Shown here one piece after another: positions 1 through 9,220 of a stretch of 9,466 nucleotides of DNA. The stretch is from Candidatus Cloacimonadota bacterium (GTDB lineage Bacteria; Cloacimonadota; Cloacimonadia; JGIOTU-2; B8-G9), in NCBI GenBank assembly GCA_003647765.1, contig QMNM01000036.1, positions 1-9,466 of the forward strand, given 5' to 3'. The notes below the pieces were generated by a model, which saw only the letters and a program-made list of their open reading frames with translations, was not told the DNA's origin and searched no databases. How positions within the stretch are numbered: position 1 is the stretch's first letter; each line of letters starts with the position of its first letter. The position numbers were made by a program, and so were the translations under genes.

Positions 1-253
1 CTTCTACCAGAACCGGACTCCCCTTTTTTAACACACTGCTCAATCTCTCTACTTGTGGACCCCAAAGAGTAACTCTCTGAAAACTTGTTTGCTCTTGCCA
101 ATTTCCATCTCTGTCTTTATAATTTCTATTATTAGCAATTCCAAATCTTAGAAATGGTGTTCCTTCACTTGTGTACCTTAAATCAGGGTCCATTGTAAGA
201 TGTCCAGAAATAATAATGTAATTAACATTCGGCATTCGTAATGGTATGCTCAT
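1..253 (-). CDS. ssb: Single-stranded DNA-binding protein, N-terminal part (cut by window edge)
   Basis: The 84 visible residues form the first part of the OB fold of a bacterial SSB, which coats single-stranded DNA in replication, repair and recombination. The pattern 'SGHLTMDPDLRYTSEGTP', then 'FLRFGIANNR', 'QEQTSFQRVTLWG' and 'LKKGSPVLVE' matches the family in order. The C-terminal part, including any acidic tail that binds partner proteins, lies outside the window. The ATG at 253 is preceded by AGGAGG at 260-265 with a 6-nt spacer, a strong reason for this start. It gives a short lead-in, MSIPLRMPNVNYIII; an internal ATG at residue 7 is possible but has no comparable ribosome site. The gene lies 33 nt after rpsF, the usual rpsF-ssb(-rpsR) arrangement, so the two are probably co-transcribed. 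Confidence 0.95.
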   Translation of the reverse strand, partial: MSIPLRMPNVNYIIISGHLTMDPDLRYTSEGTPFLRFGIANNRNYKDRDGNWQEQTSFQRVTLWGPQVERLSSVLKKGSPVLVE

Positions 254-286
254 TTATTTCCTCCTATTTACCTTATTTTGCAGATC

Positions 287-574
287 TCATTTGGAAATTA
301 GAATTAAGTATCGTAAGATATTCTCCATAAGCTTATACTTCTTTTCCAACTCAATGATTTTTTCACTATCTATTTGAAAGTAGATAATATAATAATAAGC
401 TTCTTTTTTCTTATTTATTGGATAAGCCAGATGCCTTTTACCCCATCTATCAATATCTGAAATTTTTCCATTATTTTCTTTAATTAAATTTGTCACGCCA
501 TCAATTGTTTTATCAATATCCTCTTCAGATAAATCTGTGTTTATAATTATCATCATTTCATAATTTCTTATCAT
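287..574 (-). CDS. rpsF: 30S ribosomal protein bS6
   Basis: This encodes bS6, the small-subunit protein that pairs with bS18 on the central domain of 16S rRNA. At 95 residues it is a compact form without the acidic C-terminal tail of the E. coli protein. The start 'MIRNYEMMIIINTDLSEEDI', the core 'IDRWGKRHLAYPINKKKEAYYYIIYFQ', and the last helix 'LEKKYKLMENILRYLILI' are the family landmarks. An AAAGGAG at 584-590 lies 9 nt before the ATG and supports this start over the internal methionines. It heads a probable rpsF-ssb unit. The 207-nt gap upstream contains a hairpin and a possible promoter, so expression is likely independent of pth. In other bacteria this operon can be autoregulated by S6:S18; that leader structure was not recognised here. 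Confidence 0.95.
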   Translation of the reverse strand: MIRNYEMMIIINTDLSEEDIDKTIDGVTNLIKENNGKISDIDRWGKRHLAYPINKKKEAYYYIIYFQIDSEKIIELEKKYKLMENILRYLILISK

Positions 575-627
575 TTCTTTTATCTCCTTTGGACTTTCAG
601 TCTAATATTTATTAGCCACAAACACAC

Positions 628-643
628 AAGGCGTAGTGCGTAA
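628..643. repeat. Dispersed 16-bp repeat, copy 1
   Basis: The word aaggcgtagtgcgtaa occurs here and again, perfectly, at 2996-3011. Flanks are also related: an 'aacac' word lies a few bases before both copies and 'tgcc' follows both. It lies between pth and rpsF. A perfect 16-mer twice in 9.5 kb is not expected by chance, so this is a repeat family member of unknown function. Confidence 0.75.
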
Positions 644-652
644 TGCCCGCAC
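636..652 (-). other. Small hairpin in the rpsF leader
   Basis: GTGCG (636-640) and CGCAC (648-652) are complementary around a 7-nt loop. In the minus-strand transcript this makes a 5-bp GC-rich stem about 60 nt before the rpsF start. Part of it belongs to the 16-bp dispersed repeat at 628-643, so it may be a by-product of that repeat rather than a regulatory leader. Confidence 0.3.
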
Positions 653-656
653 AAAA

Positions 657-686
657 ATAATACTTATAACTGATATGATCCCACAA
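657..686 (-). promoter_or_regulatory. Possible promoter for rpsF-ssb
   Basis: On the minus strand TTGTGG (681-686) is followed, after 18 nt, by TATTAT (657-662). That is a fair sigma-70-like pair about 80 nt before the rpsF start. The overlapping word TATTTTTG also fits the TAnnTTTG box of Bacteroidetes promoters. It lies downstream of the palindrome after pth, where a new transcription unit would be expected. In AT-rich DNA such matches arise by chance, so support is modest. Confidence 0.3.
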
Positions 687-751
687 GACAAGAAGACAGG
701 AGTTCAAGAAGACAAGAAGACAAGAAGACAAGAGTTCAAGAAGTTAAGAAG
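683..751. repeat. Degenerate GACAAGAA tandem tract
   Basis: A purine-rich tract is built from gacaagaa-type units, with three near-perfect copies at 711-734 and variants caggagttcaagaa and agagttcaagaagtt on both sides. The longer word agttcaagaag also recurs (701-711 and 733-743). Transcription of the minus strand makes this a CUUCUUGU-rich RNA just after the pth hairpin. It has no dyad or spacer structure and no coding potential that I can support. Confidence 0.7.
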
Positions 752-754
752 TAG

Positions 755-774
755 AACGACCTTCCAAGGTCGTT
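755..774 (-). terminator. Perfect palindrome after pth, candidate terminator
   Basis: AACGACCTT (755-763) and AAGGTCGTT (766-774) are exact inverted repeats separated by CC. The stem is best drawn as 7 bp with a 6-nt loop. It begins 7 nt after the pth stop codon. In the minus-strand RNA it is followed by CUACUUCUUAACUUCUUG, pyrimidine-rich but not a clean U run. It could therefore be a weak intrinsic terminator, an RNA-processing end, or a small palindromic repeat. Confidence 0.45.
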
Positions 775-781
775 TAAATAT

Positions 782-1363
782 TTATACTGATTTTTGCATT
801 TTGCTATAGAGATTCAACATCTCTTGAAATCCACTTTTTAGATATTTCCATAACAATTCTGCTGTCTTCCCAATCATTAGATTAACAACTTTTAATTCTT
901 CATCATTGAATTTGCCAAGCACAAAATTTTTTTTCTTTACTATATTTTCAGCAATAATTCCGTCAGATGTCTGACCAATGCCCAATCTGATTCGTTTAAA
1001 TTCCTCGCTCTCTAATTGATATATGATAGATTTTAGCCCATTATGTCCTCCATCTAAGCCACTCTCTCTGATTCTTATATTACCTAATTTGAGATGAATA
1101 TCGTCAAGAACAACCAATAGATTGTTTTGAGAACAGGAAAAATCATCAAGGACATCAATCACAGCAATTCCGCTTAAGTTCATAAAAGTATTCGGATACA
1201 CGAGAATATTATCATCAATTTCAAAGAATGAATAATTTTTTCTATTTATTATTTGAGGAGAACGATATTGCTTATTAATATAATCAAGCACAAGAAATCC
1301 GACATTATGTCTTGTGTACTTATATTTTTCCCCTGGATTCCCTAATCCAACTACGATTTTCAT
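782..1363 (-). CDS. pth: Peptidyl-tRNA hydrolase
   Basis: This enzyme cleaves the ester bond of peptidyl-tRNAs that fall off the ribosome, recycling the tRNA in the cytoplasm. At 193 residues it has the normal family length. It starts 'MKIVVGLGNPGEKYKYTRHN' with the catalytic histidine at residue 19 and Asn9. It contains 'NTFMNLSG' (Asn62), 'VVLDDIHLKLG' (Asp87 as the catalytic-site aspartate) and 'GGHNGLKS' (Asn108), all substrate-binding or active-site positions in the family. The start lies 12 nt after the rplY stop codon with only a weak ribosome site, which suggests translational coupling to rplY. The order prs-rplY-pth is the same as in B. subtilis prs-ctc-spoVC. A hairpin lies immediately downstream. 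Confidence 0.96.
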   Translation of the reverse strand: MKIVVGLGNPGEKYKYTRHNVGFLVLDYINKQYRSPQIINRKNYSFFEIDDNILVYPNTFMNLSGIAVIDVLDDFSCSQNNLLVVLDDIHLKLGNIRIRESGLDGGHNGLKSIIYQLESEEFKRIRLGIGQTSDGIIAENIVKKKNFVLGKFNDEELKVVNLMIGKTAELLWKYLKSGFQEMLNLYSKMQKSV

Positions 1364-1375
1364 CTATTTACCGAT

Positions 1376-1999
1376 TTAGTCAGTTTTAGATTTTGTATCC
1401 TCTTGTTCCTGTTCAATCTCTTCTTCTTTTTCTTCCTTTTCTTCTACTTCTTTCTTAGGAGGCACTATTGACAAGATAGGTGCATCTATGTCAGTTAAAA
1501 TTTCTACATTTTTTATCTTTATATCTCTAATATGTATAGTATGACCTATTTCCATATTAGATATATCTATTTCAATAGAATCAGGTAGATCGCCAGGCAG
1601 ACATCGTATTTCTAATCTCCTAAGATGAATTTCTATCATACCGCCTTGTTTTACACCTGTTGCTTCTCCAATGAATTTAAAAGGCACTGTTACTACAATT
1701 GATTCTCCACTTGTTACAATATGAAAATCAGCATGAATAAACTGTCGTGAAACAGGATCTGTCTGGACTTCTTTAATCAATGTTCTATAAGTTTTGCCGT
1801 CAACATCTAATTCAATAAATGATAAATGCTTCTGACTTTCTTTATATACATTAAAAAACTCTTTATAATTTAAAGTAATGGGTAAAGATTTAATATCTTT
1901 TCCATATACAACCCCGGGCATAAGTTTATGATTTCGTAGTTCTCTCATTTTTTGTTTGCCTAAAGCTTGTCTTTTTTCTACTGTCAATTTCAATTCCAT
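1376..1999 (-). CDS. rplY: 50S ribosomal protein bL25, two-domain CTC/TL5 type
   Basis: The product is the long form of bL25, which binds 5S rRNA in the large subunit. In B. subtilis the equivalent, Ctc, is a general-stress protein. The N-terminal 5S-binding domain (about residues 1-95) shows 'KRQALGKQKMRELRNHKLMPGVVYG' and 'LIKEVQTDPVSRQFIHADF'. The C-terminal beta domain (about 96-185) shows 'VPFKFIGEATGVKQGG' and 'EIDISNMEIGHTIHIRDI'. The end (about 183-207) is a highly charged tail, mostly Glu and Lys, of the sort common in this family. The ATG at 1999 is preceded by GGAGG at 2010-2014 with a 10-nt spacer. It lies 29 nt after prs and 12 nt before pth, so the three genes probably form one unit. 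Confidence 0.95.
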   Translation of the reverse strand: MELKLTVEKRQALGKQKMRELRNHKLMPGVVYGKDIKSLPITLNYKEFFNVYKESQKHLSFIELDVDGKTYRTLIKEVQTDPVSRQFIHADFHIVTSGESIVVTVPFKFIGEATGVKQGGMIEIHLRRLEIRCLPGDLPDSIEIDISNMEIGHTIHIRDIKIKNVEILTDIDAPILSIVPPKKEVEEKEEKEEEIEQEQEDTKSKTD

Positions 2000-2028
2000 T
2001 TATTAGTTTCCTCCATAAAAATTATGAT

Positions 2029-2973
2029 TTAATCAAAAAGCATACTAATTGATTCTTCCAAGTGAATTTTTTTTATTGCTTTTGCTAATAAATTAGCAAT
2101 TGTAAGTTGTTTAAACTTTTTACACATTTTTTTCTCTTTTGTCAGAGGAATAGAATCAGTAACAACGAATTCTGTAATAGGTGATTCTTGTATTTTTTTT
2201 ACTGCATTATCGGACAGTACAGCGTGTGTACAAGTAGCATAGATTTTATTAGCCCCAAGTTCTTTTAACTTATAAGCTATATTTGTAATAGAAGTTGCAG
2301 TATCAACAATATCATCTACCAAAATTGTATCACAGCCCTTTACATTGCCGATGATGTTTATAATGCTACTATTTCCGCTATTATCTGTTCTCCTTTTATC
2401 TCCAACTGCCAGATCTGCTTTTAGATTAGTAGCGAATTTCCGTGCACGCTTAACTCCTCCTGAATCAGGTGAAACTATGACCAAATTTTTCCACTTCATT
2501 TTACTGTAATAATCTAGTAAAATTGGTAATGCAGTTAGATGATCAACTGGAATGTCAAAGAATCCTTGAATTTGGCCTGCATGTAGGTCAAGGTTTACGA
2601 TTCTATCTGCACCAGCAGTTGTCAATAAATTAGCTACTAATTTAGCAGTAATAGGCACTCTTGGTTGGTCTTTTTTATCAGAGCGAGCATAACCATAATA
2701 CGGGATGACCGCAGTAATTCTTTCAGCAGAAGCACGACGTAAAGCATCAATGATTATCAATAGTTCCATTAGGTTATCATTAACAGGGGCACAAGTAGAT
2801 TGAATAACAAAAACATCGGATCCTCTGACATTGTCTTTGATTCTAACAAATGTATCATCATTAGAGAATTTGAATATATCAGCATTGCTTAATGGTATTC
2901 CAGATTCCTGAGCTACTTTTTGTGCTAATATCGGATTGGAATTACCACTAAAAAGTCTAAGTTTTGAAAACAT
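2029..2973 (-). CDS. prs: Ribose-phosphate pyrophosphokinase (PRPP synthetase)
   Basis: It makes PRPP from ribose 5-phosphate and ATP, feeding purine, pyrimidine, histidine, tryptophan and NAD synthesis. The 314 residues match class I enzymes. Visible landmarks are 'RIKDNVRGSDVFVIQSTCAP', the ATP-side loop 'YYGYARSDKKDQPR', 'NLDLHAGQIQGFF', 'VSPDSGGVKRARKFA' and the PRPP loop 'ILVDDIVDTATSI'. That loop usually reads DTAGT or DTGGT, so DTATS is an uncommon variant; the aspartate pair and the first threonine are kept. No Shine-Dalgarno site precedes the ATG at 2973, and the 16-bp dispersed repeat lies 22 nt upstream. It follows spoVG by 122 nt and is 29 nt before rplY, as in the Bacillus gene order but without glmU between spoVG and prs. 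Confidence 0.96.
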   Translation of the reverse strand: MFSKLRLFSGNSNPILAQKVAQESGIPLSNADIFKFSNDDTFVRIKDNVRGSDVFVIQSTCAPVNDNLMELLIIIDALRRASAERITAVIPYYGYARSDKKDQPRVPITAKLVANLLTTAGADRIVNLDLHAGQIQGFFDIPVDHLTALPILLDYYSKMKWKNLVIVSPDSGGVKRARKFATNLKADLAVGDKRRTDNSGNSSIINIIGNVKGCDTILVDDIVDTATSITNIAYKLKELGANKIYATCTHAVLSDNAVKKIQESPITEFVVTDSIPLTKEKKMCKKFKQLTIANLLAKAIKKIHLEESISMLFD

Positions 2974-2995
2974 AATTTAATAGAAAAACACGGAT

Positions 2996-3011
2996 AAGGC
3001 GTAGTGCGTAA
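2996..3011. repeat. Dispersed 16-bp repeat, copy 2
   Basis: This is the second perfect copy of aaggcgtagtgcgtaa (the first is at 628-643), placed in the spoVG-prs gap just before the prs start. Here it is followed by atttgccacaaagg, a word resembling the GCCAC... words of the repeats at 8085-8160. No coding function is evident. Confidence 0.75.
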
Positions 3012-3095
3012 ATTTGCCACAAAGGAAGAAATAATTGTTATTTCGTATAATTTTATAGAACAAAATATATTACAAATTATTTTCTAGCCTACGCA

Positions 3096-3383
3096 TTAAG
3101 ATCTGTGCTCTAAATTTTGATTCTCCGATTTATCCAGTTGCTTGTGATAAGCATCAATAATGGTTTGATCAAGCCATCTTCTTGTATCAGTGTTAATCGG
3201 ATGGACAACATCTGTAAAATCACCATTTTTCATTTTTTTGCTTGGCATTGCAACAAATAACCCTTTTTTGCCTTCAATGACTTTGATGTCTTTAATTAAA
3301 AAACAATTATCAAATACAATATTAGCATAAGCTTTTACAGGAGGTTTATTCAGTAAAAAAACACGAATATCAGTTACTTCCAT
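3096..3383 (-). CDS. spoVG: SpoVG family nucleic-acid-binding regulator
   Basis: SpoVG was named for a sporulation phenotype in Bacillus but occurs widely in non-spore-formers, where homologues bind DNA and RNA and regulate genes. The 95-residue product has the standard length and opens 'MEVTDIRVFLLNKPPVKAYA'. It then has the family signature 'GLFVAMPSKKMKNGDFTDVVHPIN' (about residues 41-64), ending in a charged tail after 'IIDAYHKQL'. AAAGGAG at 3392-3398, 8 nt before the ATG, fixes the start. The gene sits between ispE (169 nt upstream) and prs (122 nt downstream), its usual relative place in Firmicutes. Nothing here suggests sporulation, so a general RNA- or DNA-binding role is the safer reading. 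Confidence 0.95.
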   Translation of the reverse strand: MEVTDIRVFLLNKPPVKAYANIVFDNCFLIKDIKVIEGKKGLFVAMPSKKMKNGDFTDVVHPINTDTRRWLDQTIIDAYHKQLDKSENQNLEHRS

Positions 3384-3552: not shown

Positions 3553-4461
3553 TTATCGCGCTATGTATAAGTTTGCATTGCTCGGTAAAGGATATTCACA
3601 TCTTGTTATAAATGTCCAATATCCTTTGTTAGAAAATCTTTCCTTAGCATATACAAGATCTTCACGATTCTCAAAAATCCCAAATAATGTGGCACCACTT
3701 CCAGAAAGTAATGCTCCTGATGCGCTAAATTCAAGCAATTGATTTTTTATTGTTTTTAGAAGAGGATATTTCTTAAATAGTCCATCTTCCAATTTGTTAT
3801 ATAAATTGGATGCAACTTCTTTTAAGTCATTACTTTTAACAGCATTTAATATTCGTTCAAATTTATTTTTATTCACTTTATTAAGTTTAACTAATGAATA
3901 AGCCTCATGACTAGAAATTTCTATTCCTGGATTTACTAACAATATATTTTCTAGTTTTATTTTTAGCGTAGATTTCTTGTCTGCAATTTTTGGAACTATT
4001 TGCTCTATACTATCGCCTTTATTCCTCCCGATTGCTATGCCTCCTGTTAAAAAGAAATTTATATCGCTCCCAAACTTAGTTCCAATATCTCTTAATTTCT
4101 CTTCTGATAATTCAAGTTCACATAATTGATTTAGGATTCTCAAACAAACTGCCGCATTACTGCTTCCCCCACCCAAACCTGCGCCAAGAGGAATTCTCTT
4201 TTTTATGGTTATACTAATGCCTTGTTTTATGCCATATTTATTCTTAATAAATTCTGCAATTTTGAACACAATATTTCTATTTCCACTGATTTTACTAACA
4301 TCTGATAAAACCGTTATCTTACCATCTTCCGTTAGATAAGTATTTATCTGGTCGCATAAATTTATTTCAGAGAAGAGAGTAATAATATTATGATAATTAT
4401 CATATCTACAAGACAATACATCAAGAAACAAATTGATCTTTGCGTAAGAATTTTGGAACAA
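3553..4461 (-). CDS. ispE: 4-(cytidine 5'-diphospho)-2-C-methyl-D-erythritol kinase (MEP pathway)
   Basis: IspE phosphorylates CDP-ME in the MEP route to isoprenoids. With the TTG start at 4461 the protein has 302 residues, close to the family length. Landmarks are 'SYAKINLFLDV' (Lys8 of the active site), the GHMP-kinase ATP loop 'PLGAGLGGGSSNAA' (residues 91-104), 'FGSDINFFL' with Asp133 as probable catalytic base, and the late glycine motif 'LSGSGATLFGIF'. The TTG is chosen because homologues have only about 6-9 residues before AKIN and because AAGGA (4472-4476) lies 10 nt upstream. An ATG at 4503 would add 14 basic residues with no ribosome site. The chosen start overlaps the kinase gene by 41 nt, implying translational coupling. 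The usual Pro after GSD(V/I) is Asn here. Confidence 0.93.
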   Translation of the reverse strand: MFQNSYAKINLFLDVLSCRYDNYHNIITLFSEINLCDQINTYLTEDGKITVLSDVSKISGNRNIVFKIAEFIKNKYGIKQGISITIKKRIPLGAGLGGGSSNAAVCLRILNQLCELELSEEKLRDIGTKFGSDINFFLTGGIAIGRNKGDSIEQIVPKIADKKSTLKIKLENILLVNPGIEISSHEAYSLVKLNKVNKNKFERILNAVKSNDLKEVASNLYNKLEDGLFKKYPLLKTIKNQLLEFSASGALLSGSGATLFGIFENREDLVYAKERFSNKGYWTFITRCEYPLPSNANLYIAR

Positions 4462-6721
4462 GTTTTGCCAATCCTTTTCTTTCTTTTTTCTTTTCCCCAC
4501 CATAATAATAATAGTAATAGTAGTAATAATAGTAGTAATAGCTATATCCGCTATAATATTTATGAACATCTATTCCATTTATAACAACACCATTTACAGT
4601 AATGCCGATATGTTCTAATAATGATTTTGCCCGTTCAACAATACTACGATCTGTAACGCCAGCACGAATAACTAATGAGAGAGCGTCAACTTTTTTTGAC
4701 AGAATCATAGCATCAGTTACAGCTATAATTGGTGGGCTGTCAAAGAGGATATATTCATAAGTTTCTTTGACTTTATTTATAAGTTGATCCATCTTTTTAG
4801 AAGCTATAAGCTCGGATGGATTTGGCGGAACATGACCGCAAGTTATTATATCCAAATTCTTAATTTCAGTTTGCCGAATAATATCAGAAAGTTGGCAGTT
4901 TTCATCTATAAAGTAATTTGTGAGTCCAGGCTCCTTATCTTTATAAAATAGATTATGTATCATTGGACGTCTTAAGTCAGCATCAATCAGAAGTGTTTTT
5001 GAGTCCATTTGCGCAATTGTTATAGCGAGATTTGCAACTGTTGTGCTTTTACCTTCTTTTGGCCCTGCACTACTAATAGCGAGAGTTTTTATTGGACCTG
5101 GATTTCTGTAAGCACTAAGCACATTAGTTCTAAAAGTTCTATATGCTTCTGCAATTGGTGATTTTGGTGCATAATGAGGAACTAATCTGGCTACAATACG
5201 CTGTTGGGTTTGTGTCAATTGTTTTAACTTTTCTTTATCTCTCTCATTTCTCAATTCTTCAGATAGTTGAGATAATGCAACCTCATCTACTGGAATATCT
5301 GGTATAGTTCCTACAACTGGTAATTTTACATATCGTTCAATATCATTTAAGGATCTAAGAGTAGTATCCATTGAAGATAATATAAGTGCAGAACCAATGC
5401 CTAATCCTAATCCCAAAACAATAGAGATCATTAAGTTCATTTTCGGTTTAGGTTTTGTAGGAGATACTGGCAGATATGCAGTTTCTAAAATTCGGATATT
5501 ACCTATCTTTCCCTGTTCAGAAATCTTTGCTTCTTCGTATTTCTCTACAAGCAATGTATGAATGTTCTCATTCATCTGTTTGTCTCTTTCTAAACGTGCT
5601 AATTCCAGTTCTGTATCAGGAAGAGATGTCATCTTTTGTGTATATTTTGCTACAATGCTTTCTATTGCACTTACTTTTGTTTGAGCAACATTTAGTTCTA
5701 CCTGTGCATTTGTAATCTCCCCTATTATTTCGCCTCTTCGTGCCAATGGGTCACTCGCATCAGTTTTCAATTGCAATACTTTATCTATTTCTAATTTTAA
5801 TTGTTCTCTTTCCCTTTCAATTTCTTCTTTTAATTTTCTAAGTTCTGGATGTTCAGACGAATATCCTTCTTTTGTTAAATAGATTGCATATTTCGCTTCA
5901 TTCTCTACTAGTTTTTTCCTTAATTCCTCAATTAATGGACTAGATATAGCCATCACCTCATTTGCTAAAGCAGAGTCCTGTTGAGCTAATATGCTTTGTA
6001 AGAATTTCAATTTTTTCTCTGCTACCTGTAATTCTGTATTTGCATCATTTAATTGAGCCTCAAAGCTAGATGAAGTCCTTACTAATTCAGCTGTTTCTGC
6101 TGAAAGAGTAGAGATCCTGTTTTGAATTTTAAATTCACGTAAATCCTCTTCAGATATAGCCAACTTTCTTTTTATTATATCTAATTGCTTTTCTAGGAAT
6201 TCTCTTACAGCTGCAACCTCTGTTCTGGCATATTCCAAATTTTTCTCCTTAAAGCTTTCTGCAACACTATTAGCTGCTACTTGCGCCTCTAATGGATTAG
6301 TTGAAGAAATAGATATTGTCAGCACATCAGTATCTCGCTCAGAAGATACATCTACTCTTCCTTTCAAAGACATTGCTGGATTTTCAGATTTTAGGATAGG
6401 AAAAGTTTCGCTCTCAGGATGAGCTTTCATTTTTTCAATAGCAGAATTCATAATTGGAATGCTCTTTAAGAGTATGATTTGGTTTTTTAGGGACTTATCT
6501 CCGTAACCTGCTGGCTGGAAAAAGAATTCCCCCTTTTTTTGTTGCTCAATAAGCACTTTTGCTGATGTAACATATATCTTTGGCTGACGCATTGTAAATA
6601 CCATAGTAACAAGAACAATTATCGTAAATATTGACAATACCAACCATTTCCTTTGTATTATAATTCTTATGTATTCTTTAAATTGTAGTTCACTTGTTTC
6701 TGTTTGGTCAAAATTTTCCAT
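4421..6721 (-). CDS. BY-kinase: polysaccharide co-polymerase fused to tyrosine autokinase (Wzc-like)
   Basis: This is a 766-residue inner-membrane protein of the Wzc/Etk class, which controls exopolysaccharide chain assembly by cycles of tyrosine autophosphorylation. A Wzz-type domain starts with TM1 (about 25-43), followed by a long coiled-coil periplasmic region (about 160-400). Then come a GNVR-type segment 'LPDTELELARLERD' (367-380), the Pro-rich 'PVSPTKPKPK' and TM2 (about 428-449). The cytoplasmic kinase has the oligomerisation motif EAYRTFR (525-531), Walker A 'GPKEGKST' (553-560), Walker A' 'LLIDADLRRP' (577-586) and Walker B 'ILFDSPP' (658-664). The tyrosine cluster spans 722-740, with Tyr728-740 as an unbroken run of 13, followed by a basic tail of 26 residues. 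An AAGAGGAA precedes the ATG. It starts 18 nt after the SLBB gene, its likely export partner, and its 3' end overlaps ispE. Confidence 0.93.
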   Translation of the reverse strand: MENFDQTETSELQFKEYIRIIIQRKWLVLSIFTIIVLVTMVFTMRQPKIYVTSAKVLIEQQKKGEFFFQPAGYGDKSLKNQIILLKSIPIMNSAIEKMKAHPESETFPILKSENPAMSLKGRVDVSSERDTDVLTISISSTNPLEAQVAANSVAESFKEKNLEYARTEVAAVREFLEKQLDIIKRKLAISEEDLREFKIQNRISTLSAETAELVRTSSSFEAQLNDANTELQVAEKKLKFLQSILAQQDSALANEVMAISSPLIEELRKKLVENEAKYAIYLTKEGYSSEHPELRKLKEEIEREREQLKLEIDKVLQLKTDASDPLARRGEIIGEITNAQVELNVAQTKVSAIESIVAKYTQKMTSLPDTELELARLERDKQMNENIHTLLVEKYEEAKISEQGKIGNIRILETAYLPVSPTKPKPKMNLMISIVLGLGLGIGSALILSSMDTTLRSLNDIERYVKLPVVGTIPDIPVDEVALSQLSEELRNERDKEKLKQLTQTQQRIVARLVPHYAPKSPIAEAYRTFRTNVLSAYRNPGPIKTLAISSAGPKEGKSTTVANLAITIAQMDSKTLLIDADLRRPMIHNLFYKDKEPGLTNYFIDENCQLSDIIRQTEIKNLDIITCGHVPPNPSELIASKKMDQLINKVKETYEYILFDSPPIIAVTDAMILSKKVDALSLVIRAGVTDRSIVERAKSLLEHIGITVNGVVINGIDVHKYYSGYSYYYYYYYYYYYYYGGEKKKERKGLAKLVPKFLRKDQFVS
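4472..4476 (-). promoter_or_regulatory. ispE: Ribosome binding site supporting the ispE TTG start
   Basis: AAGGA on the minus strand, within AAAAGGATTGGC, precedes the TTG at 4461 by 10 nt. It lies inside the coding sequence of the upstream kinase, over Lys749-Gly750. It is the only purine-rich site correctly placed for an IspE with a normal N-terminus; the ATG at 4503 is preceded only by TAT/TAC repeats. Confidence 0.5.
4502..4540 (-). repeat. 39-nt TAT/TAC codon tract encoding 13 tyrosines
   Basis: Thirteen consecutive codons of the BY-kinase are all TAT (8) or TAC (5). This trinucleotide-like tract could change in length in steps of one tyrosine without shifting the frame. The mixed TAT/TAC order makes slippage less likely than in a pure repeat. 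In the frame of ispE the tract reads Ile/Thr codons and ends in the ATG at 4503, which I do not take as the ispE start. Confidence 0.85.
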
Positions 6722-6739: not shown

Positions 6740-7234
6740 TTAATCTTTTAAATTTATAAACAGGTTATAAACACCCAGAACTGCAGCTACTTTTGCAAGA
6801 AAATCTGCTGTTTTTGAAAATGCGTAAAATATAGTACCAGACACAATAATAGTATCTCCAGGTTGTAGAACAGGTATCAGTTCCTGATTTCCTGTCTCCA
6901 AGTATTCTTTCATATTTACCCAGATGATCTTCTTTCCTCCCTTTGTGGGCCTAACTATCCTTATTTTTGATAACTTGGCTTGTTCTGTTGGACCCCCTGC
7001 TAAAGATAATAAAGCAAGTAAGTTCGTATCATCAGGAACAATATATAAACCTGGCTTCTTTACCTGCCCCCAAATATAAGTATAAATCCTTAATTGTTCT
7101 GCATCTCCCATAGTTCCTGAATATGAATAAGCAGATACAGCTGGTGCACTAGGAGAAATGTTCGTCTGTGATAATAACAAAATCGGTAGCATAAATAAGT
7201 TAATGATAATGATTATAATTATACCTTTTTTCAC
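6740..7234 (-). CDS. Small secreted SLBB-domain protein, probable partner of the BY-kinase
   Basis: The 164-residue product has a signal peptide or membrane anchor (MKKG followed by seven isoleucines, to about residue 22) and a low-complexity Ser/Ala/Pro linker. One SLBB domain follows (about 48-132), with 'YIWGQVKKPGLYIVPDDTNLLALL', 'AGGPTEQAKLSKIRIVRP' and 'QPGDTIIVSG'. SLBB domains occur in Wza-type export proteins, but the N-terminal poly-export domain is absent, so this is not a complete Wza. A hydrophobic helix ends the protein (about 135-162), which could insert in a membrane. The start is GTG at 7234, preceded by AAGGAG (7241-7246) with a 6-nt spacer. The BY-kinase follows after 18 nt, strongly suggesting co-translation and a joint role in surface polysaccharide or envelope work. 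Confidence 0.85.
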   Translation of the reverse strand: MKKGIIIIIIINLFMLPILLLSQTNISPSAPAVSAYSYSGTMGDAEQLRIYTYIWGQVKKPGLYIVPDDTNLLALLSLAGGPTEQAKLSKIRIVRPTKGGKKIIWVNMKEYLETGNQELIPVLQPGDTIIVSGTIFYAFSKTADFLAKVAAVLGVYNLFINLKD

Positions 7235-7308: not shown

Positions 7309-8079
7309 TTACTGAACAATTATTGTCCTTTCCTCAGATTCAGCACCATATTTACCACCAGAACCATCCTCAAAAAACACATCTACACGCCAATAATATG
7401 TCTGGCGTGAGATTAAATTGTCGTCTACTTCAATTGAATAAATACTTTGCATAGGATCTATGTCATAATGCCAGTAAACAGAGTGGTCACTATTAAATAT
7501 TAGCACTCTAACAGAACTAGCATTTTCACTAATACTACCAGCCTCCCAGGCTAATAACAATGTATCCATACCTGATATCTGATGTTCATCAGGAGGATAA
7601 GTTAGCATAGGAGAAACTAATAAGCCGTATCTTACAGTATCAGAAATAGATGAATTACCAGCTTCATCATAAGGTTGGATATAATAAGACCATATTTTAG
7701 GATAAAGTCTATGACCTGTATATGTATTAAATTCGTCAATAAAAACTGTATCTTGGGTATTATAAAGAACATCCACGACTGACAAAGAATCTTCATTGCT
7801 AAAGCGATAGACAATTATATGATGTAAGTCATCATCTGGTAAATAGTTCCACATAATCTGAATATAATTCTGCTCACCTGGCCCAGCAGACACTGCATCA
7901 ATACCATTGCCTTCATCTGTTAAAAAAATGGAAACAGTATCATCACCAGGATCGCCTAAATGAGGTATTAAATGTGGATTAGTAGGAGGTATTTTATCCA
8001 CTTCTTCTGGACCCTCTTTAGCACAGGAAAAGAAAAATGCTATTATAATTATCAGTAATATCCCAATGTATAATTTCAT
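7309..8079 (-). CDS. Lipoprotein with two fibronectin type III-like domains
   Basis: From the ATG at 8079 the protein has 256 residues. It starts 'MKLYIGILLIIIIAFFFSC', a lipoprotein signal with Cys19 as the lipidated residue. A short segment with 'PHLGDPGDD' and 'DEGNGIDAVSAGPG' follows, rich in Asp and Gly. Two beta-sandwich units of FnIII type come next: the first (about 70-150) with 'YIQIMWNYLPDDDLHHIIVYRF' and 'WSYYIQPYDEAGN', the second (about 165-255) with 'LTYPPDEHQISGMDTLLLAW' and 'TYYWRVDVFF'. No enzyme motif is seen, so a binding or structural role in the periplasm or at the surface is inferred. The frame stays open to an ATG at 8148, but those extra 23 codons are an intergenic repeat and would bury the signal peptide. 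No Shine-Dalgarno site is evident. Confidence 0.75.
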   Translation of the reverse strand: MKLYIGILLIIIIAFFFSCAKEGPEEVDKIPPTNPHLIPHLGDPGDDTVSIFLTDEGNGIDAVSAGPGEQNYIQIMWNYLPDDDLHHIIVYRFSNEDSLSVVDVLYNTQDTVFIDEFNTYTGHRLYPKIWSYYIQPYDEAGNSSISDTVRYGLLVSPMLTYPPDEHQISGMDTLLLAWEAGSISENASSVRVLIFNSDHSVYWHYDIDPMQSIYSIEVDDNLISRQTYYWRVDVFFEDGSGGKYGAESEERTIIVQ

Positions 8080-8169
8080 TTTCTTTGCCACGAAAATACA
8101 CGAAATTTTATAAAACTTTTTCATTTTAATTTCTTGCCACGAAAACATACGAAATTTTACAAACTCTCT
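8075..8169. repeat. Tandem duplication with CACGAA words before the lipoprotein gene
   Basis: Two adjacent copies (8075-8119 and 8120-8169) share ttcatttt, then ttgccacgaaaa and cgaaatttta. They differ by an insertion of about 5 nt and a few substitutions. Each copy contains CAT, an ATG on the minus strand followed by AA: one at 8079, the probable lipoprotein start, and one at 8124. The duplication therefore copied or recreated a start-codon context. Within each copy the cacgaa-like words repeat at about 10 nt. Confidence 0.75.
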
Positions 8170-8191
8170 TTATTTTTTAATTAACCTCGTA

Positions 8192-9220
8192 TTAAAAAGA
8201 TATACGCACACCTACACGATGCGTATTTGCTAAAACATTGGTTAAGAACGCATAATTTATATTAAATCTACGATATGTTATGCCAGCTCCGAATGAATAA
8301 TCATCATCAGAATAGCCAGTTCGCAGAAAAGCAAATTTTTTATATTGCAATTCAAGCCCAATATGAGAAGTGTACTTATACGCATTATCCCAATCATAGT
8401 CAATTGTAATTACTGAATGTATCTTTGGAATTGGCTGAACAACAGCTACTCCCATTTTTGTATTTGTAATGATTTCGTCACTCCATCTTGATTTTGTATC
8501 CCATGTAATTTTTGTCCCAGCAACATCTTGAATATTAATTCCATAACGGATTTCACCAAGCCAATCTAATTCTGTTAGAATAGCCAAATCCGATTTTATC
8601 ATTGCTGATAAATCAACACCAGTGCCTGTTGCAGAAAATTTATACAAATCTCGCTTGATATATTTAATTGTAGCACCGAAATAATAATCTATTGGCACTT
8701 CAAAAAATAGCCATCCCATATTAACTAATTGAGATATATGTTTAGAGAACGCAAATTGGAATAAATTATCACTGCTACTAAACTCGCCATCAGGAATGCC
8801 AGTTAATTGCTTGTTTATGTCTGATGACCTTTGGTCTGTATTGGTGCCTGTTAAATGTTTTTCGCTAAAATAAGGAATATCATCAATTGATAATCTAGTC
8901 CAAGCCAATCCTACAGATACATCACTTGGCAAGGGTATACATAGAGAGATGAAGTCATAGCTGGCAATATTATCGTATAAAAATGCCCGCATTAAAATAA
9001 TTTCTTTCTCTCTTATTTGCGAGATGCCAGCTGCATTCCAATAGATTGCACTTCCATCATTAGCAACAGCTACAAAAGCACCTCCCATAGATAAAGAGCG
9101 AACACCTGCTCCAATCGCAATAAAATCACCTGCATAGCGTCCAGCAATTAAGGAGAAAGGAGAAAGAAAAAAATAAAAAAGGGAACATACTAATGTTATT
9201 ACTAAAAAATATTTTTTCAT
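8192..9220 (-). CDS. PorV/UPF0164-type outer-membrane beta-barrel protein
   Basis: The 342-residue protein has a signal peptide (about 1-27, ending near 'SLIAG'). It then has the signature 'GDFIAIGAGVRSLSMGGAFV' (31-50) and 'ANDGSAIYWNAAGI' (53-66), shared by PorV, PorQ and UPF0164 proteins and related to the FadL fold. Alternating polar and hydrophobic strands fill the rest, and it ends '...RVGVRISF' with the terminal Phe used for outer-membrane insertion. PorV is part of the type IX secretion system in Bacteroidetes, but most UPF0164 relatives in candidate phyla have no proven role, and no other T9SS gene or C-terminal sorting domain is here. It heads the envelope module, 112 nt before the lipoprotein start. 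No Shine-Dalgarno site precedes the ATG, only an AT-rich stretch. Confidence 0.85.
   Translation of the reverse strand: MKKYFLVITLVCSLFYFFLSPFSLIAGRYAGDFIAIGAGVRSLSMGGAFVAVANDGSAIYWNAAGISQIREKEIILMRAFLYDNIASYDFISLCIPLPSDVSVGLAWTRLSIDDIPYFSEKHLTGTNTDQRSSDINKQLTGIPDGEFSSSDNLFQFAFSKHISQLVNMGWLFFEVPIDYYFGATIKYIKRDLYKFSATGTGVDLSAMIKSDLAILTELDWLGEIRYGINIQDVAGTKITWDTKSRWSDEIITNTKMGVAVVQPIPKIHSVITIDYDWDNAYKYTSHIGLELQYKKFAFLRTGYSDDDYSFGAGITYRRFNINYAFLTNVLANTHRVGVRISF

Follow-up and report, generated by a model that had tools for sequence, protein, structure and literature searches.

The kinase gene considered here, from a Candidatus Cloacimonadota bacterium, has an unbroken series of 13 tyrosine codons near its 3' end, which raises the question whether this run is a functional part of the protein, a tandem repeat prone to changes in length, or an error of assembly. 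The window is the whole stretch of DNA that was analyzed, comprising 9,466 nucleotides of contig QMNM01000036.1, and its relevant features are compiled in Table 1. The C-terminal end of the 766-residue product reads ...NGIDVHKYYSGYSYYYYYYYYYYYYYGGEKKKERKGLAKLVPKFLRKDQFVS*. As the first-pass annotation had claimed, translation of the ORF places 13 consecutive tyrosines at residues 728-740, and further ones at residues 722, 723, and 726 bring the total to 16 within residues 722-740. The codons of the run follow the order t c c t t c c t c t t t t (t, TAT; c, TAC), so that the tract mixes eight TAT with five TAC codons and is no pure repeat.

Table 1. Positions of the kinase gene, the parts of its tail, and the adjacent genes in the window.
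Feature	Position	Strand	Basis or remark
BY-kinase/PCP-2a polysaccharide co-polymerase, 766 aa	4421..6721	-	profiles, motifs, AF2 model
Upstream tail YYSGY (residues 722-726)	4544..4558	-	YY invariant across class
Acceptor tail, 13 consecutive Tyr codons (residues 728-740)	4502..4540	-	sequence
Basic C-terminal extension GGEKKKERKGLAKLVPKFLRKDQFVS	4424..4501	-	end shares DNA with IspE motif SYAKINLFLD
ispE	3553..4461	-	probable TTG start at 4461; AAGGA before it at 4472-4476
SLBB (Wza/OPX-like) export protein	6740..7234	-	upstream partner in 53/56 loci

A Wzc-like kinase with a dense tyrosine tail

The protein is a Wzc-like BY-kinase with intact kinase motifs, and trans-autophosphorylation is ascribed to it by analogy. 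It matches the profile of polysaccharide biosynthesis tyrosine autokinases (TIGR01007) with 210.2 bits at a cut-off of 108.05, and an N-terminal Wzz domain (PF02706; 28.6 bits, cut-off 25.5) and a GNVR domain (PF13807; 61.1 bits, cut-off 27.7) belong to the same polypeptide as the kinase. The score for the Wzc equivalog NF008568 was 247.9 bits, which is far under the cut-off of 1068 bits. Walker A (residues 553-560), A' (577-586), and B (658-664) as well as EX2RX2R (525-531) are present, and their key residues are invariant or nearly so among 56 orthologues. PCP-2a co-polymerases have two transmembrane helices flanking a periplasmic domain; in the kinase, hydrophobic stretches were read by eye near residues 26-45 and 426-448.

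Among solved structures, those of Wzc and CapB are the closest relatives. An AF2 model of the kinase part only, built with 27 orthologues, reached pLDDT values that exceed 90 in most of the core and are about 35 from the run onward, and the tail is predicted to be probably disordered in the monomer. The top Foldseek matches of this model were CapAB and octameric Wzc (TM about 0.73, E about 1e-20). Profile, motifs, fold, and the 16 tyrosines thus uphold the earlier description as a BY-kinase with an unusually dense C-terminal tyrosine cluster.

The 13-tyrosine run is far beyond chance. Elsewhere in the 1.97-Mb genome, at least five consecutive TAY triplets in any frame occur in only two places, each with exactly five. 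Across 124 genomes of the phylum there is about one place per genome with an unbroken run of nine or more TAY codons, and nearly all of those places that could be compared with the kinase search fall inside the ispE-linked kinase. A run of more than 13 was implied in none of these 124 genomes when all-TAT matches, which were also present in the backward control, were left aside. The source is a metagenome-assembled genome of 360 contigs, in which repeats might have collapsed or expanded, so that an assembly or sequencing artefact had to be considered; this explanation is hardly credible, because dozens of independent assemblies of relatives, including a single-contig genome (G018), carry the same kind of run, and the mixed tract of 39 bp is shorter than usual reads. 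As regards the presence of the run, the relatives thereby also dealt with the assembly error that had been named as a possible refutation of the original observation.

Run length and codon usage among relatives

Of the 59 genomes searched, 58 have a match to the kinase. In all 56 readable loci ispE lies downstream of it, and the SLBB export protein is encoded upstream except in three loci that end at a contig edge. The tail retains an unbroken run of 5-13 tyrosines in 54 of the 56 orthologues, 45 of them with at least nine, and the remaining two are interrupted (YYYLYYY). The upstream YY pair (residues 722-723) is invariant across the class. Judging from these sequences, run length is specific to lineages and nearly fixed within them across the class: it is 10 in all eight species of genus g4, 12 in 19 of 23 full-length members of family f3, and mostly 7 in family f4. 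The run of 13 is not peculiar to the source genome; it was read directly in two genomes of family f3 (L029 and L064), and about five further genomes have an implied length of 13, as deduced from five overlapping 9-codon matches.

The first-pass annotation had proposed that the TAT/TAC coding could allow stepwise changes in length and thereby serve as a dosage dial, and had named a fixed cluster in homologues of the same lineage as one refuting outcome. Such fixed clusters are what was found in g4 and f3, and the proposal fails between species. Parsimony reconstruction gave 18 synonymous changes within the run in g4 and 58 in f3 members with 12 tyrosines. Per codon, this corresponds to 1.80 changes in the run vs 1.25 at other invariant tyrosine codons in g4, and to 4.83 vs 4.00 in f3. 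The g4 codon set comprises every member found (eight genomes), and no non-Tyr substitution occurs inside their runs; the f3 codon set was picked for 12 tyrosines, so the lack of tyrosine loss there follows from the choice of rows. Since synonymous turnover is at least as high as the background while tyrosine is kept, the run is selected as protein.

Codon composition points in the same direction. The TAT share is 0.49 in the run vs 0.72 at the other tyrosine codons of the same genes, i.e., TAC is enriched. With one genome per genus the shares are 0.50 and 0.68 (p 2e-5), and the enrichment also holds against YY pairs elsewhere (p 0.003), both p values being approximate because the sequences are related. 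The longest stretch of identical codons in the run is 3.24, compared with 4.00 in shuffled runs. Codon interspersion as a sign of anti-slippage selection was considered and rejected: the matching of adjacent codons gave p 0.28 with one genome per genus, and for this reason only the TAC enrichment is claimed.

A rapidly slipping TAY repeat that makes the number of acceptors phase-variable is consequently a very improbable explanation. Run lengths do vary from 3 to 13 between genera and families, the repeat is tandem, and one relative (L020, G045:C53) has ten tyrosines encoded by pure TAT, the only orthologue with a slippage-prone tract. A weak lag-4 periodicity of the codons (p 0.02 with one genome per genus, uncorrected) further hints at old 12-bp duplications. 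A young product of slippage would, however, be expected to have homogeneous codons and an unstable length, and the opposite is observed: besides the TAC-enriched codon mixture and the fixed lengths in g4 and f3, only about 18 length changes fall on a 55-tip tree, compared with many more synonymous changes. Neither a pure or nearly pure short repeat in the run nor frequent length change among close relatives, two of the features expected of a repeat-length contingency locus, was found. The sequence comparison therefore argues for selection at the protein level and not for a slipping DNA repeat.

The tail compared with Wzc and other BY-kinases

In Wzc of E. coli K30, the C-terminal tail enters the active site of the neighbouring protomer, where Tyr(i-2) is held in a pocket and orders the tail while Tyr(i) is phosphorylated (PMC8285477, PMC11986026). 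Phosphorylation proceeds from the C- to the N-terminal end and destabilizes the octamer, which disassembles after the fourth conserved phosphate (PMC8285477, PMC11986026). No single tyrosine of E. coli Wzc is essential, and it is the extent of phosphorylation that matters (PMC8285477, PMC11986026). Work from 2025 proposed the YxY spacing as a one-way phosphorylation ratchet, which is strengthened by the N711Y exchange: by filling one gap in the K30 tail, this exchange leads to an ordered tail and more phosphorylation, and with it the 3YE mutant regains CPS (PMC8285477, PMC11986026).

The kinase studied here shares with Wzc of E. coli K30 and K-12 (PDB 7NHR, 3LA6, 9EXO) the Wzz domain, GNVR, the Walker motifs, EX2RX2R, and a C-terminal tyrosine tail with YxY spacing. 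Wzc has seven interspersed tyrosines, whereas 16 are present here, 13 of them unbroken. The reach of the tail, counted between the Asn in the last core strand and the final tyrosine of the run, is 25 residues (17-25 in the class, median 23) and thus similar to the 22 residues in K30 Wzc. As 16 rather than seven tyrosines are accommodated within nearly the same reach, tyrosines appear to have replaced the spacers with little lengthening. Tyrosine pairs at i and i-2 exist throughout positions 730-740 and also at 726/728. By sequence, the tail is thus a denser variant of a known regulatory tail, and we rather favour the reading that the run serves a Wzc-type BY-kinase as its trans-autophosphorylation tail, spacers having given way to tyrosines at a nearly unchanged reach.

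In such a tail, the unbroken run would offer tyrosines at i and i-2 in every register, so that the tail could be held at every step, with no gap such as N711 in the path of the ratchet. Many more phosphates might then be loaded before the octamer falls apart, and the timer for polysaccharide polymerization and export would run longer or be steeper. The lineage-specific run lengths would tune this timer over evolutionary time and not by phase variation. The gene lies in a housekeeping neighbourhood and not in a polysaccharide gene cluster, so that a role in polymerization and the control of polysaccharide export are putative. Disassembly of the octamer after few phosphates could also leave most of the tyrosines unused.

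The K30 ratchet may not apply here in every detail, since two of its residues are not conserved. Opposite the pocket glutamate of Wzc, E675, the alignment places I694, and Ile or Val is found there in 54 of 56 orthologues, although this comparison is an ungapped pairwise alignment within a helix in which an acid at a shifted position is conceivable. D28, which forms an ion pair with K701 in Wzc, aligns with Q23, a position occupied by Gln or Arg in 50 of 56. Lys or Arg before the tail YY is common in the class. In view of the two missing details, the claim is limited to a tail that works like that of Wzc, and the protein is not claimed to be Wzc.

How the number of tyrosines would matter is a separate question. 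The poly-Tyr rail may act as a multi-step phosphorylation counter with single-residue steps and a capacity of about 16 phosphates for each protomer at most, its lineage-set length (7, 10, 12, 13) timing the lifetime of the export complex, which we regard as a tentative proposal. Alternatively, enough tyrosines could simply suffice, any of them being tolerated, and length would drift within the limits of tail reach. This saturation without tuning is considered possible but doubtful. It agrees with the dispensability of each single tyrosine in E. coli Wzc, where phosphorylation extent counts (PMC8285477, PMC11986026), and with class lengths between 3+3 and 13, as well as lengths of 0-8 in samples from Bacillota and Chloroflexota. 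Drift should nevertheless admit F, H, S, or N, and the eight g4 genomes contain no such substitution in the run despite synonymous change at or above the background. The class can be regarded as a natural experiment: all gaps of the Wzc type are filled, length is nearly fixed by lineage, and the natural lengths of 5, 7, 10, 12, and 13 bear on whether the lifetime of the oligomer counts phosphates or distance travelled.

Dense tails are also found beyond the phylum. CapB of S. aureus and the Bacillota BY-kinases (TIGR01007) have the same kinase fold, as seen in the top Foldseek matches. These differ in their two-chain system, in a shorter tail reach (14 residues in CapB), and in shorter runs. 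Samples of 25 kinases from Bacillota and 27 from Chloroflexota were drawn by kinase family and not by tyrosine run, except that three of the Bacillota kinases, all with eight tyrosines, came from two genomes first found via poly-Tyr. The longest run was at least five in 16 of the Bacillota kinases (maximum 8) and in five of those from Chloroflexota (maximum 6), and a run of nine or more was found in none of the 52. Bacillota kinases often have an unbroken run of 5-8 tyrosines, which in many of them precedes an acidic turn and basic residues. In other phyla, runs of 9-10 occur in L043, L047, and L048, which a poly-Tyr-seeded search had retrieved; the matches of the contig scan in other phyla are biased because they were partly seeded by the pattern YYYYYYYY, and the samples drawn by kinase family took their place in the comparison. 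As far as these sequences indicate, the 13-tyrosine run sits atop a continuum. The earlier statement that tyrosines of such clusters are normally interspersed is correct for E. coli Wzc but does not extend to the whole family, given how common runs of 5-8 tyrosines are among Bacillota kinases. In a literature search that mostly lacked subscription journals, no paper describing an uninterrupted tyrosine run in a BY-kinase was found.

The source genome encodes a second BY-kinase (G000:C27, L089 1-480), which is partial and has a long C-terminal extension. Its tail is rich in tyrosine like that of the main kinase, but the residues are interspersed in a YxY pattern: EYEDYSDYYYKYRYKYGYGYYDTY. In this kinase and in the second BY-kinases of related genomes (L087 and L088) the longest run is 2-3, and the gene is distinct from the ispE-linked orthologue.

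The counteracting phosphatase of Wzc is Wzb. Here, the partner of the kinase is probably of the CpsB/CapC type, which is encoded in 56 of 57 genomes and at G000:C54 in the source genome. LMW-PTP was not found in the source genome and is missing from most of its order, too. Within the class, the CpsB/CapC phosphatase co-occurs with a one-chain Wzc-like kinase.

Overlap with ispE and gene neighbourhood

The genes for the kinase and IspE overlap by about 41 nt (4421-4461). The probable ispE start is at the position where most genomes of family f3 have an ATG, four codons before the motif SYAKIN; the source genome has TTG there. A longer listed ORF (3553-4569) is probably over-extended, and the tyrosine run is probably located upstream of IspE and not part of it. 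Counted from the first base of the SYAKIN motif, the kinase stop codon starts 26 nt downstream in families f1, f3, f9, and f10 and in most members of f4; the geometry is shifted in the other families. Owing to this conserved geometry, the DNA for the IspE sequence SYAKINLFLE, when read out of frame, gives the kinase C-terminus FLRKxxxVS; in the source genome, the last residues FLRKDQFVS correspond to SYAKINLFLD.

The IspE overlap was rejected as the cause of the run because the probable start, also used by most f3 genomes, lies downstream of it. A role at the nucleic acid level, in which the run or the purine-rich stretch following it couples translation of the kinase to that of ispE, is very improbable. 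The probable ispE start inside the kinase gene, the AAGGA just upstream of it, and the geometry kept in several families would fit such a coupling. However, the run shows no conservation at synonymous sites, lies outside IspE, persists with differing geometry (f2, f5, f8), and is also found in short stand-alone kinases of other phyla.

Downstream of ispE (2-3383), housekeeping genes are encoded; spoVG and prs were confirmed by profile, and ribosomal L25-like, pth-like, ribosomal S6-like, and ssb-like proteins were read from the sequence only. Upstream of the export gene are a protein without family match, a possible lipoprotein, at 7309-8148, and a PorV-family protein at 8192-9220. Repeats resembling GCCACRAANRCACRAA occur at 615-630, 3016-3031, and 8087-8151, some of them inside genes; in the window there are eight loose matches on both strands vs 0.8 expected, and five exact copies are present elsewhere in the genome. 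In addition, a 49-bp tandem repeat is located at 8073-8176, and 8-bp units are repeated at 685-751.
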